64,000 nucleotides of DNA from Methanocaldococcus bathoardescens (GTDB taxonomy: Archaea > AGJL01 > Methanococci > Methanococcales > Methanocaldococcaceae): contig NZ_CP009149.1 of the NCBI RefSeq assembly GCF_000739065.1, forward strand, positions 496,001-560,000, in the 5' to 3' direction. Positions 7,063-31,595 of the stretch are shown here, piece after piece (position 1 is the stretch's first letter; each line of letters opens with the position of its first letter). Below the pieces are notes generated by a model. It saw only the letters and a program-made list of their open reading frames with translations, was not told the origin of the DNA and ran no database searches. Made by a program: the position numbers and the translations under genes.

Positions 7063-8721
7063 TTATGCCGCAGGGATGATTAAATCTCTTTCTCCAGCTG
7101 GCTCAAACTCTCTTAAAGCACCTTTTGCTATACACTTTCTTGGCCACTTGAAGTCGAATATTAAGTTGTCATCTGCAAACGCTACTTTAATTATTGGGTT
7201 TAGACAGAACGCATCCCCCCTTGCCGCATGAGGAGCTTGAGCAATTCCTGCATACTCTGGCTGATGCCCGACGTTCATTGCATAGTTTGGATAGTTAGGT
7301 CCTCTACATTCATGTAACAGACCTTCATCACTTCTAATTGATAATGAGTTTGCTGCCCCACACTGGTCTTGCAAGTCATAACCATAGAATCCTAATCTGC
7401 TGTGATACTCTTTATGCATAATTTGGCTTAGATACCATCCGTTAATTCCAGCGTTTGAGTTTCCTGTTGCAAACGCTACTGAACATCCAGCTGCAGCTGC
7501 TGTAACCCCTGCTCTTTGAGAACCACCAAAGTGGTCTTCTAATAAAGCTGGGTATTCATCATACTGCTCTAAACCGTATAAAGTTACTTCTGTTGCTATA
7601 TCTTTAACAACATCCATACTTGGCTTAACTCCACATAAACCATACTTTTTCTCAACATAATCCAATCCATAGTAGATGAAATCATCTAAAATATCATCTG
7701 TATATGTTGCTGATGCATACTGTGTAAATCCTACTCCTCCAGACATGTAACTTCCTAACCAAACTTGGTCGTAGAATGTTGCTGCTGCACCAATAACCTC
7801 TAATGTTACTTGAGCTGGGTCATCACTAACCCTTGATGTTTGTACTATATCTGCAAATATTCCAAATGGCACTCCTCCTGGCTCATTAGGCCCTCTTGCT
7901 CTTCTTGCTGGCAATATTGTTCCCATTTGGATAACGTCAGCGTGCTTTGCAGCGTAAGAGAAATCAGCAATTGCCGCTTCTCCAGCACATAATTTGTAGG
8001 CAGTAATGAAACTCATTCCTATTTGCATTGCACTCCATCTTGCAACTGTCCCTCCATCACAACATCTAACAACTATTGTAGGAACTCTACTTACTTGATA
8101 AGTTCTATTTCCAATGTATCTCTTTAACATCTCTGCCTGTTCTTCAGGGAATTCTTTATTTATGTCAATTAAAAACCTTTTATCAATCTCATCTGCTAAT
8201 TCATCATTTCCTGTAAATATCTTAGCATAACAGTCCCAAACTAAACCAGGATGAACCTCAACCATGTGCTCTTGGACAACAGCCCCTCCTGGTAAAGCGT
8301 GGTTGATTGTCTCCATGTATTCGTTAATTGTTTCTGGTGTAACCTCTACCCCTAACCTTTTCTCTAATACAGCGTGAGCTGTATCCATCCCTACAATAAC
8401 TGTTCTTTTAATATCATCAACTAATTGCTGTATTGCTGCGTTGTTGCAGAAGTGTAAGTCATCCCCTTCAACAAAAGCATCAGTTCCTGATATTTTATAG
8501 GTCATCAACTTTCTTTGCCCTAAAGGAACTCCAATATCTGGGTTGTAGAATGGAATTCCTCCTCTCTTCTCAATTAATTTTTGAGCAAATTCAACAAACT
8601 CTCTCTTTCTTGCTGATTGTCTCCATCCTCCAAATATATAAAATTTGGTGTATTTCTCTTTTGGGTCTTCTTCAAACTTTTCTTTTAATGCTTTTAGGAA
8701 GAGTTTTTTCTCAACGTCCAT
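7063..8721 (-). CDS. mrtA: Methyl-coenzyme M reductase II, alpha subunit
   Basis: Catalytic subunit of the nickel F430 enzyme that releases methane from methyl-CoM and CoB. 552 residues, standard length. Residues known to be modified or catalytic in family members are present: Gln150 (F430 axial ligand), His260 (N-methyl-His), Arg274 (methyl-Arg), Gln402 (methyl-Gln), Gly447 in FYGYD (thioglycine), Asp452 and Cys454 (didehydro-Asp, methyl-Cys), and Tyr335 in GGVGFTQYA. The ATG overlaps the mrtG stop (TAATG), so the two are translationally coupled. Last gene of mrtBGA; T-rich sequence follows on the minus strand. Isoenzyme II assignment rests on the operon having no mcrC or mcrD. Confidence 0.97.
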
Positions 8722-9521
8722 TATTCTTCACCTAATCTCTTTTTCAAATCTTTTTTAAATACTTCTAAACCAAATCCTCCTTTTGTTCTTGCCTCATGGA
8801 TTATTTGAACAACCTCTAAAGCTTCTTTATCCTCTCTCATTCCAATGTTGTCTTTTCTGTAAATTGTTGTTATTTTTGCCAAGTAATCTTGTGGTAACGG
8901 CTCTCCAACATCTACTGGTTCATCTAAAGGTCTTCCAACTTGGTCTTTAACATACAAAACATGTCCTGTCTTTTCATCATAGATGTATCTCTGCAAACCG
9001 TCAAACATCAAGCCGTTTTCATCCAATCTTAATGAGTGCCCGTGAACTGTAGCCCCTCTTATTCCACAAGTTGCTGGGTCAAAGAATTCTGTATCAATTA
9101 AGAAATTCTTAGAGATTTTTTCTAAGTCGAGCTCTCTCATCTCAATAACTTGTCTTCCTGATAATGTTCCAGTATCAATCCCTCTAAATCTCCACATGTA
9201 TGTTCTTGCTCTGTCATAAGGTTGAGCTGGGGCATTATACATAGAATCAGCAAACTGGATGTATCTAACTCTAACTCCCTCCTTAGCTCCTTGAATTGGT
9301 TCAACAATCTCTTTAATAACATCCTCTTCAAAGTCCATTTCTTCCAATGGTGGATGAACTGTCTTATAACTCTCTCCAGGGTTTCTATGTCCTAATATCT
9401 TAACTATCCCATCGTCTGGAATATCTCTCAATTTCTTTAACTCAACATCAGGATTCATGTGCTTTCTTCTATTTTCAGCAATTATTGTATTTCCAGGATA
9501 AAATTGTGGTTTGTATGCCAT
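8721..9521 (-). CDS. mrtG: Methyl-coenzyme M reductase II, gamma subunit
   Basis: 266-residue gamma subunit of the alpha2-beta2-gamma2 reductase. Family marks: N-terminal [20 protein letters not shown], then [20 protein letters not shown], and [20 protein letters not shown], all typical of McrG/MrtG. GGTGATTGG precedes the ATG. It lies 11 bases after mrtB and overlaps mrtA. No mrtD lies between beta and gamma, unlike the mrtBDGA order of Methanobacteriales. Confidence 0.97.
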
Positions 9522-9532
9522 CCAATCACCAT

Positions 9533-10879
9533 TTAGATAACTTTTTCTTTTTCTTTTATCTCTACAGCCCCTTCAGCAACATATTTTAATGGCTCTCTTA
9601 AGTGGTCAATAGCACTATAAACAGTTCCTACTAATGCTGAAGTTCTCTCAACTGAGAACATTTGAGTTCCAGCATCTAAGCACATTGCAGCTGCAGCACA
9701 TGGGATAGCAAATCCTTTTGAGTGTCTTGTAACAACGTGGTTTCCGTGGAATGTTCCAGGCCCTCCTCCTCCGTAGATTGAATGGCTAAAGAATGAGAAA
9801 CCAACTGCTGTCCCCTCTGCTCTACCAAAATCAACGCTTGGCAAACCAGTTTCGTATTCTAAGATATCGTTGTAGTAAAGGACAGTTGAAGCAACACCTT
9901 GAGCTGCTCTTGCAGCCCCAACGTTAACAATAACCGCAGCAACTAAACCTGATGCTGCATAGGCATTCCATAAAGCCCAATCTACTGGCTCATAAACTGT
10001 GTATCCAGAAGGCATTGTTTTTAAAGGTCTTATAACTCCATCTTCTAAAGCTCTCTCAACGACTGAAGCTACCACAGTTCCAACTGTTCCGTCCTTTCCA
10101 TTCTGTTTTACAAGCTCAAATGTTAAATTGTTAGCATTTAATCCCTGGAACGCTAAACCTAACAAGTGTAATCTCTCAAAAGCTCCTAATGCATCTCCTG
10201 TCTCAAACATTGCCGTCTGCTCCAATATTGACGCCAAAGCAACAGCATTTAATGTCTTTTTCCTTGTAACTGCTACAATGTGGTTTGCCATAATATTTCT
10301 CAACCCATAACCAAGCCCTTCTAATAAAACTGGCGGCCCCAATAATGTAGCAATATTTGCCCCATGGAAATCAACTGTTTGTGGATATCTTCCCATAACT
10401 GCTGTTTTAACAACTGGAGCATCGAACATATCAACTTCAAAAGTATCAACAATTGCCTGAACAGTTGCCCCTCCTCCAATTAATGCTGAAACTGTATAGT
10501 CAGCAGCTACTCTCAATCTCTTTGATGGCAATTGTAAGAGTATCTGCTTACCTCCGTTGATTAACTTAACAACTGTATCATCATCTTCATCAATTTGAAC
10601 CATTCTTTTTATCTTTTCAGCAATAATTTCAGCGTTTTCTACAATTGGTAAATCCAATTCTCTTCCTGGACAGAAACAGGCCTTTCCTCCAACGGCTCCT
10701 GTTCTTAAAGCATTCTCTATTCCTGCTAAGTTTATCGCAACACTCCTCTTAATGTCATTAACTATCTTCTCAATTGTTGGGTTTTTTAACGGGCTTATCG
10801 CTTCTAATGGGATATTTTCCTCTAACAACTTCCCTCTCTCGTCATATAAATCTATCCTATCTTCATAATGTAGCATTAT
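9533..10879 (-). CDS. mrtB: Methyl-coenzyme M reductase II, beta subunit
   Basis: 448-residue beta subunit, first gene of the operon. Recognisable segments: [20 protein letters not shown] at the start, [20 protein letters not shown], and the C-terminal [20 protein letters not shown] that contacts coenzyme B and F430. GGTG lies five bases before the ATG at 10879; in-frame TTG two codons up overlaps the ribosome site and is less likely. Promoter evidence is given separately. Expression of mrt in related methanogens responds to growth state and hydrogen supply; no regulator site was identified with confidence here. Confidence 0.97.
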
Positions 10880-10937
10880 CAACACCAGCCATTTTTGTTA
10901 ATATTATACTACGACTACAAAAAATAATAGTAATAGG

Positions 10938-10957
10938 TATATAAAATTTTCTATTTT
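10938..10957 (-). promoter_or_regulatory. Proximal TATA/BRE promoter candidate for mrtBGA
   Basis: Reading on the minus strand, AGAAAATTTTATATACC forms an A-rich BRE plus TATA box about 60 bases before the mrtB start, with the expected start of transcription 25 bases further down and a leader of about 35 bases. A second, more upstream promoter-like site at 11186 could add a long leader. Confidence 0.55.
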
Positions 10958-11015
10958 TTCCTAAAAATTACTAAAAAATATAAGAATAATAATATTAAAA
11001 TAAAAAAATAAATTC

Positions 11016-11170
11016 TGAATCCTCACAGAGGTGAGCCCAATATGCAATAGAACTTACGCAATTTTTGAATCCATAAAGGAAATTTGATGCCTTTAGGCAT
11101 CATTAATACAATAAAGTATAGACCTCTGCGTAAGTTCTATTGTGGGAGTGATTCCTATGGCATACGTGAT
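11016..11170 (-). ncRNA. Candidate structured RNA or mrt leader, interrupted by an inverted-repeat element
   Basis: Outside the inserted element (11048-11139) this stretch is unusually G+C-rich and can fold as a three-way junction: GAATC (11017-11021) pairs with GATTC (11150-11154), CTCAC with GTGAG (11022-11035), and CCCAATA with TATTGTGGG across the insertion. On the minus strand a BRE/TATA-like site lies about 20 bases upstream and a T-rich tract (TTTATTTTTTTATTTT) follows directly. It could be a free small RNA or an attenuator-like leader of mrtBGA. I match it to no known family. The rest of the 474-base gap is A+T-rich. Confidence 0.45.
11048..11139. mobile_element. MITE-like inverted-repeat element, type 3
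   Basis: TA-flanked element of 92 bases with ends TAGAACTTACGCA and TGCGTAAGTTCTA. A central hairpin GATGCC-TTTA-GGCATC is shared with the type 2 element at 31459. It sits in the loop of a hairpin of the candidate structured RNA, and removing it with one TA restores that hairpin. Confidence 0.85.
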
Positions 11171-11185
11171 ATGACAAAATTCATC

Positions 11186-11202
11186 ATATATAATATTTTC
11201 GG
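11186..11202 (-). promoter_or_regulatory. BRE/TATA promoter candidate for the structured RNA
   Basis: On the minus strand, CCGAAAATATTATATAT resembles a strong archaeal BRE plus TATA box. Transcription would start near 11163, just before the paired region described at 11016. It is upstream of the nearer mrt promoter, so it may drive a separate RNA or a second, longer mrt transcript. Confidence 0.5.
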
Positions 11203-11353
11203 TTTAGTTTTTAATATAAAGTTTTATCTTAAATTAAAATATTCATAAAAACAATATTTAAATATATTTTAATTCTTAATTTTTAATAGTAATATTTTTA
11301 TACCAAACACCTATTAATACTATTCTGCAAATAAGTATTACAAAAGTGATACT

Positions 11354-11734
11354 ATGGAACGGATTTCACTAACCATTGAGAAAAAACTGCTAAAGGACGT
11401 TGATGAAATTATAGATAAAGAAAAAATATCCCGTTCAGAATTCATAAGGAGGGCTTTAGAGTATTATGTAAAAAAATATGACTGGCTTAGTAGAATTGAA
11501 TCAAAAATTGGCGAAATAACAGTTATCTACAACTCAAAGGCTGTTGAAGATATTATTGAATTGGAAAGCCAATATAGAGATATTGTGATAATATCTCTCG
11601 AAATTCCGTTTGAAGGAAAAATCATTAGAAAGATTGCAATTAAAGGGCAGAGGGATAGAATAATTGAATTAGCAAATAAATTAAAAGGTATTAGTAATGT
11701 TGAACTTGCCCAACTAACTACAATTAGCATTTAG
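11354..11734 (+). CDS. NikR-like ribbon-helix-helix regulator lacking metal ligands
   Basis: 126 residues with the NikR layout: an N-terminal ribbon-helix-helix DNA-binding region (RISLTIEKKLLKDVDEII, then SRSEFIRRALEYYVKK) and a C-terminal ACT-like domain (about residues 55-126). NikR binds nickel through three His and one Cys in the C-terminal domain; this protein contains no His and no Cys at all, so it cannot bind nickel that way. It stands divergent from mrtBGA and nine bases upstream of the MoxR gene, so it may regulate either. AGTGATAC precedes the ATG. Effector unknown. Confidence 0.85.
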   Translation: MERISLTIEKKLLKDVDEIIDKEKISRSEFIRRALEYYVKKYDWLSRIESKIGEITVIYNSKAVEDIIELESQYRDIVIISLEIPFEGKIIRKIAIKGQRDRIIELANKLKGISNVELAQLTTISI

Positions 11735-31340: not shown

Positions 31341-31458
31341 GATTATCCCAAATCATAATTATAATATAAAATATAACAAAACTTTAATATCAAGTCCTAA
31401 AATAAATGTGTTTCTATAGTTAATCATCAAAAATTTATTATAAATAAAGAATGTTTAA

Positions 31459-31549
31459 TAGGACTTTCGCAGGAATAAAATTTTTAAAGGAAAGTTGATG
31501 CCTTTGGCATCTAAGTTCCAAAGAGTATATATAAACTGCGAAAGTCCTA
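31459..31549. mobile_element. MITE-like inverted-repeat element, type 2 (copy b)
   Basis: 91 bases, TA-flanked, ends TAGGACTTTCGCAG and CTGCGAAAGTCCTA, central hairpin GATGCC-TTT-GGCATC. Lies between the ABC-class ATPase gene and UPF0179. The rest of this 255-base gap is A+T-rich with no gene. Confidence 0.85.
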
Positions 31550-31595
31550 TTTAAAAACCCTTAAAGGGGCTTTTATATGTTCAATATAAATATAG

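Follow-up and report, generated by a model that had tools for sequence, protein, structure and literature searches.

Trans-encoded bacterial sRNAs that block ribosome-binding sites, MicA for example, pair through short imperfect seeds, usually with Hfq. The closest known case to the locus described here is sRNA162 of Methanosarcina mazei, which hides an internal ribosome-binding site of a polycistronic mRNA while the mRNA level stays unchanged (PMC3510493). The two MCR isoenzymes of Methanothermobacter are used in turn, MCR II being favoured under early or gas-rich conditions and MCR I under late or gas-limited ones (PMC3087415, PMC9081873). In chemostats of M. jannaschii, the mRNAs of MCR I and MCR II remained unchanged with H2 (PMC6495749), so that no switch was seen at the mRNA level under those conditions, a result that would fit translational control and would fit equally well the lack of any switch there. 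Our literature search found no paper tying an sRNA to mcr or mrt in Methanocaldococcus. As a review reports, Klein 2002 and Schattner 2002 predicted sRNAs of M. jannaschii from base composition (PMC3432209). Schattner's list has 18 unassigned candidates, and the locus described here could be one of them.

The window, that is, the whole stretch of DNA that was analysed (64,000 nucleotides, G000:C1:496001-560000), belongs to a genome of 1,607,556 bases that we take to be Methanocaldococcus bathoardescens. By profile matches, the mrtBGA operon on its minus strand (7063-10885) encodes MCR isoenzyme II, and the feature under study is placed between this operon and a divergent nikR-like gene that starts at 11354. 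The features on the mrt side are:

7063-8721, minus strand: mrtA, MCR II alpha subunit (TIGR03256)
8721-9521, minus strand: mrtG, MCR II gamma subunit (TIGR03259)
9533-10885, minus strand: mrtB, MCR II beta subunit, with its ATG likely at 10876 (TIGR03257)
10938-10956, minus strand: separate mrtB promoter (BRE/TATA), conserved in the alignment and resembling the promoter of the predicted sRNA

The nikR-like gene (11354-11734, plus strand), divergent from the predicted sRNA, encodes a short NikR-like regulator whose best match, PRK01002, lies under the curated cut-off; such a regulator could tie nickel supply to the choice of MCR isoenzyme.

We consider it likely that the locus is the gene of a trans-acting antisense sRNA, located beside the MCR II genes, that would block translation of MCR I. 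This reading draws on complementarity, uniqueness in the genome, conservation, covariation, a promoter, a T-tract and the late insertion of a MITE, all of them read from the DNA. The corresponding features are:

11000-11166, minus strand: predicted antisense sRNA gene, ends approximate, defined by a conserved promoter, two antisense modules and a T-tract
11187-11201, minus strand: BRE/TATA of the predicted sRNA, CGAAAATATTATATA, invariant and at fixed spacing
11141-11162, minus strand: module 1, antisense to the mcrB Shine-Dalgarno sequence and start codon (target G000:C1:1059294-1059313, minus strand)
11045-11142, no strand assigned: MITE-like element with 16-bp perfect terminal inverted repeats (11045-11060 and 11127-11142)
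11020-11038, minus strand: module 2, antisense to the mcrA translation start region over 19 exact nucleotides (target core G000:C1:1055912-1055929, minus strand)
10985-11014, minus strand: T-rich tract, probable terminator of the sRNA, from the sequence

On both sides of the element, the sequence is complementary to the ribosome-binding site/start codon region of an mRNA whose gene lies elsewhere. Searches of the genome itself and of its relatives matched window positions 11141-11162 to the start of mcrB and positions 10997-11041 to the junction between mcrG and mcrA in the MCR I operon. That operon, mcrBDCGA, lies ~550 kb from the predicted sRNA gene, with mcrB as its first gene and mcrA as its last. 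Because the plus strand carries mcr sense sequence at both flanks, a minus-strand RNA would be antisense to both starts; the first-pass annotation, which had recognised the flanks as G+C-rich in an A+T-rich gap, as they indeed are, missed that each is an exact antisense copy of an mcr translation start region. Module 1 matches mcrB over 20 exact nucleotides, or 22 bp when a G-U pair is counted. When up to three mismatches were allowed across the whole genome, TGTGGGAGTGATTCCTATGG occurred at two sites only, the locus (507141-507160) and the mcrB start (1059294-1059313, minus strand), and CCTCACAGAGGTGAGCCC likewise at the locus (507021-507038) and the mcrA start (1055912-1055929, minus strand), with zero matches for the reversed-pattern controls of both cores.

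Pairing energies pointed the same way. Over a set of 66 start regions from the window, the mean for the anti-mcrB module was -11.8 kcal/mol (sd 3.8) versus -41.3 for its own target, and for the anti-mcrA module it was -11.6 kcal/mol (sd 3.1) versus -47.6. The mrtB and mrtA start regions paired with the modules at background level (-8.9 to -10.7 kcal/mol), and at 80 °C the two intermolecular duplexes still had energies of -16 to -19 kcal/mol. The starts of mcrG and mrtG gave intermediate values with module 1 (11150-11165, minus strand), about -22 to -26 kcal/mol in Methanocaldococcus, because ATGGCATAC recurs there, and they are a possible weaker third target of this module. Given the exact complementarity to the ribosome-binding sites of mcrB and mcrA, the predicted sRNA probably switches MCR I off.

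The putative gene has its own promoter and terminator, as sequence signals. Read along the minus strand, in the direction of mrtB, the order is BRE/TATA, anti-mcrB segment, MITE, anti-mcrA segment, T-rich tract and then mrtBGA, which would give an RNA of ~165 nt with the element and ~70 nt without it. The minus-strand BRE/TATA and T-rich tract had already been proposed in the first-pass annotation, and the alignment upheld them, with TATTATATATGATGAATTTT unchanged across five Methanocaldococcus species and TTATATA beginning exactly 33 nt ahead of CCATAGGA in all five. From the TATA spacing, transcription likely starts a few bases ahead of the anti-mcrB module, at about 11163-11166. T-tracts serve as archaeal terminators, and each of the seven genomes with an anti-mcrA module has a T-rich tract after it. 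Work on T-tract termination in archaea is listed among the references of PMC10450193.

These signals bear on two other readings of the same DNA. The sense sequence of both mcr starts stands on the plus strand and a nikR-like gene lies downstream on it, so one could picture a plus-strand decoy, perhaps within the nikR-like leader, whose mcr-like ribosome-binding sites soak up a repressor or another RNA; the conserved BRE/TATA, however, is directed along the minus strand at fixed spacing, and conservation is poor where a promoter on the plus strand would be expected, which makes a decoy highly improbable. The antisense stretch might instead belong to the mrtB mRNA as its 5' leader, through read-through of the T-tract; the mrt messenger itself would then act in trans to repress mcr, or the mcr mRNA would hold it back. 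It shares strand and direction with mrtB and lies directly upstream of it, but the T-rich tract and a second conserved BRE/TATA separate the two, and we regard a leader of this kind as unlikely. The earlier proposal of an attenuator-like leader for the F430 enzyme operon did not hold either, given that the conserved pairing is in trans with mcrB and mcrA and that mrtB has its own promoter past the T-tract. Between the mrtB and predicted sRNA BRE/TATA elements (10938-10956 versus 11187-11205), identity is 84% over 19 nt (repeat D1); this likeness hints that the predicted sRNA may be co-regulated with mrtB.

Conservation was followed in 32 Methanococcales genomes of at least 85% completeness, with a few more in one search. 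Nine have mrtB: G000; G001, presumably strain FS406-22; G008 (1,664,970 bases), which we take to be M. jannaschii; G012, presumably M. vulcanius; G006, presumably M. fervens, where the gene is broken; G024, which we take to be Methanotorris igneus; and G016, G030 and G028. The G006 gene (G006:C1:394569-395900, L073) is interrupted by stops and frameshifts, and beside it the anti-mcrB module is damaged while the anti-mcrA module is intact. In the two Methanotorris loci (L083 in G024 and L084 in G016), an extra G-rich 5' segment lies ~45 nt ahead of CCATAGGA; that of G024 is able to form a hairpin (GGCTTTACACAAAGCC).

All nine mrt-bearing genomes, several of which are closely related, have an anti-mcrB module ahead of mrtB, behind the same type of promoter. 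The module is exact over 20-24 nt in five, carries one deletion in G012 and both a mismatch and a deletion in G006, and is reduced to a 13-14-nt core in G030 and G028. The anti-mcrA module is present in seven of the nine; in G030 and G028 it was looked for and only matches of chance length appeared. A second perfect copy of GGAGTGRTTCCTATGG exists in mrt-bearing genomes only, and those mrt-less genomes that have this sequence carry it once, at mcrB, besides a one-mismatch match in G023. Conservation of the mcrB start itself was rejected as evidence for the sRNA, since mrt-less Methanococcus-like genomes have the same sequence. Outside the order, G041 (Methanobacteriaceae), the sole one of four two-operon genomes whose starts were parsed correctly, showed no anti-mcrB match upstream of mrtB, the longest being 9 nt.

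Pairing between modules and targets is conserved by compensatory change, according to a pair table aligned by hand and a cross-pairing table. Two-sided changes occur at four positions: sRNA and target change together at mcrB positions 4 (G/A) and 11 (A/G) between Methanocaldococcus and Methanotorris, and at mcrA positions 5 (A/G) and 16 (C/T) in G012. The mcrA footprint also differs between the genera, lying directly upstream of the start in Methanocaldococcus (CCTCACAGAGGTGAGCCC) and reaching from the Shine-Dalgarno sequence to codon 4 in Methanotorris (GGTGAGCCTATGGAAGCAG, with two G-U pairs in G016). In cross-pairing, the modules as a rule favoured targets of their own genus, the anti-mcrB module of G024 scoring -46.3 with Methanotorris versus -34.6 with most Methanocaldococcus, and their pairing with several species that lack mrt was poor (-5 to -17 for G011, G002 and G003). 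As a separate observation, the mcrG-mcrA gap measures ~80-120 nt in mrt-bearing Methanocaldococcus versus ~15-30 nt in these three mrt-less genomes.

The same comparisons speak to the idea that the locus is a fossil, in which short inverted copies of two mcr starts merely persist or are kept similar by gene conversion. In closely related species the sequence shows very high identity to mcr, and the G006 copy has decayed next to a broken mrtB, as a fossil would allow. Copies of two non-adjacent starts nevertheless stand in the same orientation behind an invariant promoter, were retained across two families, and show the compensatory changes at four positions; moreover, a footprint that shifts between genera and is still complementary is not how a simple shared fossil would behave. 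We therefore judge a fossil very unlikely. Returning to the antisense sRNA, we favour, with somewhat less assurance than its assignment at this locus, the wider view that a dedicated antisense RNA switches MCR isoenzymes in hyperthermophilic methanogens by closing the mcrB and mcrA starts with perfect duplexes of ~20 bp, and that this arrangement predates the split of Methanocaldococcaceae and Methanococcaceae.

The inverted-repeat element between the modules, also noticed in the first-pass annotation, has repeats slightly longer than first drawn. It is short and non-coding, has terminal inverted repeats and several genomic copies, and an empty site exists in a relative, as expected of a MITE. 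Only G000, G001 and G008 have the element at this site; it is missing at the same place in G012, G024 and G016, and in G006 the flanks are directly joined. The element is a late insertion. Once it is removed, the plus strand reads CCAATATGTGGGAGTGATTCCTATGG, which is mcrB leader sequence, so the insertion probably cut an older and longer anti-mcrB pairing. The family to which it belongs measures ~95-100 bp, with ends like AATAG(A/G)ACTT(A/T)CGCAG and a central GATGCC..GGCATC palindrome; copies in G000 lie at window positions 11045-11142 and 31457-31551 and at G000:C1:11195-11293, 1241366-1241423 and 1471789-1471883, and further copies occur in G008.

It had also been proposed that the flanks fold on each other through GAATC/GATTC, CTCAC/GTGAG and CCC/GGG into a three-way junction that forms only when the element is removed. 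The letters can pair as described, and the junction folds at 37 °C with the element as well as without it, contrary to the stated dependence on removal. The stems, however, are not conserved. Across five species, none of their pairs shows a two-sided change; helix 1 is disturbed in G001, G008, G012 and G006, the CCC/GGG helix (helix 2) is lost in G012, the CTCAC/GTGAG helix (helix 3) is broken there at one pair, and the named stems are absent in Methanotorris. The base change that breaks the CTCAC/GTGAG hairpin in G012 keeps the mcrA pairing, and this stem is a copy of the mcrA leader hairpin. At 80 °C, the RNA without the element folds with only 0 to -0.6 kcal/mol, which is practically no stability, and the element hairpin is the main structure remaining in the full RNA. 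The three-way junction was thus rejected by pair counting and by folding at 80 °C, and a self-structured RNA or mrt attenuator with no trans target is barely credible. What stands of the earlier proposal is a predicted minus-strand small RNA, interrupted by an inverted-repeat element, with conserved promoter and T-tract. Its statement that the locus matches no known class also agrees with our Rfam search of this region of the window and nine related loci, in which nothing reached the gathering threshold.

In the mechanism that we propose, the sRNA would be transcribed from the minus strand (about 11166-11000), directly upstream of mrtBGA and presumably together with mrt. Its 5' part would pair with the ribosome-binding site and start codon of mcrB, and its 3' part with the ribosome-binding region of mcrA, which would keep ribosomes off the first and last cistrons of the mcrBDCGA messenger. 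Translation would be repressed with or without decay of the mRNA. MCR I synthesis would be lowered and mrtB and mrtA spared, helping the cells to run on MCR II. If this holds, the methane-forming enzyme is under an RNA switch. A linked antisense RNA of this kind would be a direct and testable switch, and it would join the very small number of archaeal sRNAs whose target is defined. RNA regulation at 80-85 °C would then work through long perfect duplexes rather than short seeds, and the MITE between the pairing modules would be a natural test of how such an RNA tolerates insertion.

The predicted system shares features with several described ones. Like other archaeal MITEs, the element is short and non-coding, ends in inverted repeats and has several copies in the genome, but here it happens to fall inside an sRNA gene, between two pairing modules. 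Methanothermobacter likewise keeps two MCR isoenzymes for different conditions, whereas control there is described as transcriptional. The predicted RNA resembles MicA-type sRNAs in covering a Shine-Dalgarno sequence and start codon and differs from them in pairing over a long, perfect stretch, which would be suited to 80-85 °C. Like sRNA162, it would be an archaeal sRNA that has two pairing domains, masks a ribosome-binding site in a polycistronic mRNA and has a link to metabolic switching in a methanogen. We claim no relation in sequence: sRNA162 acts on one target as a cis-antisense RNA, and its pairing with the other is weak (PMC3510493), whereas the RNA predicted here would place two near-perfect modules of 19-22 bp on the first and last cistrons of a single distant operon, from a gene that adjoins the operon of the paralogous isoenzyme.
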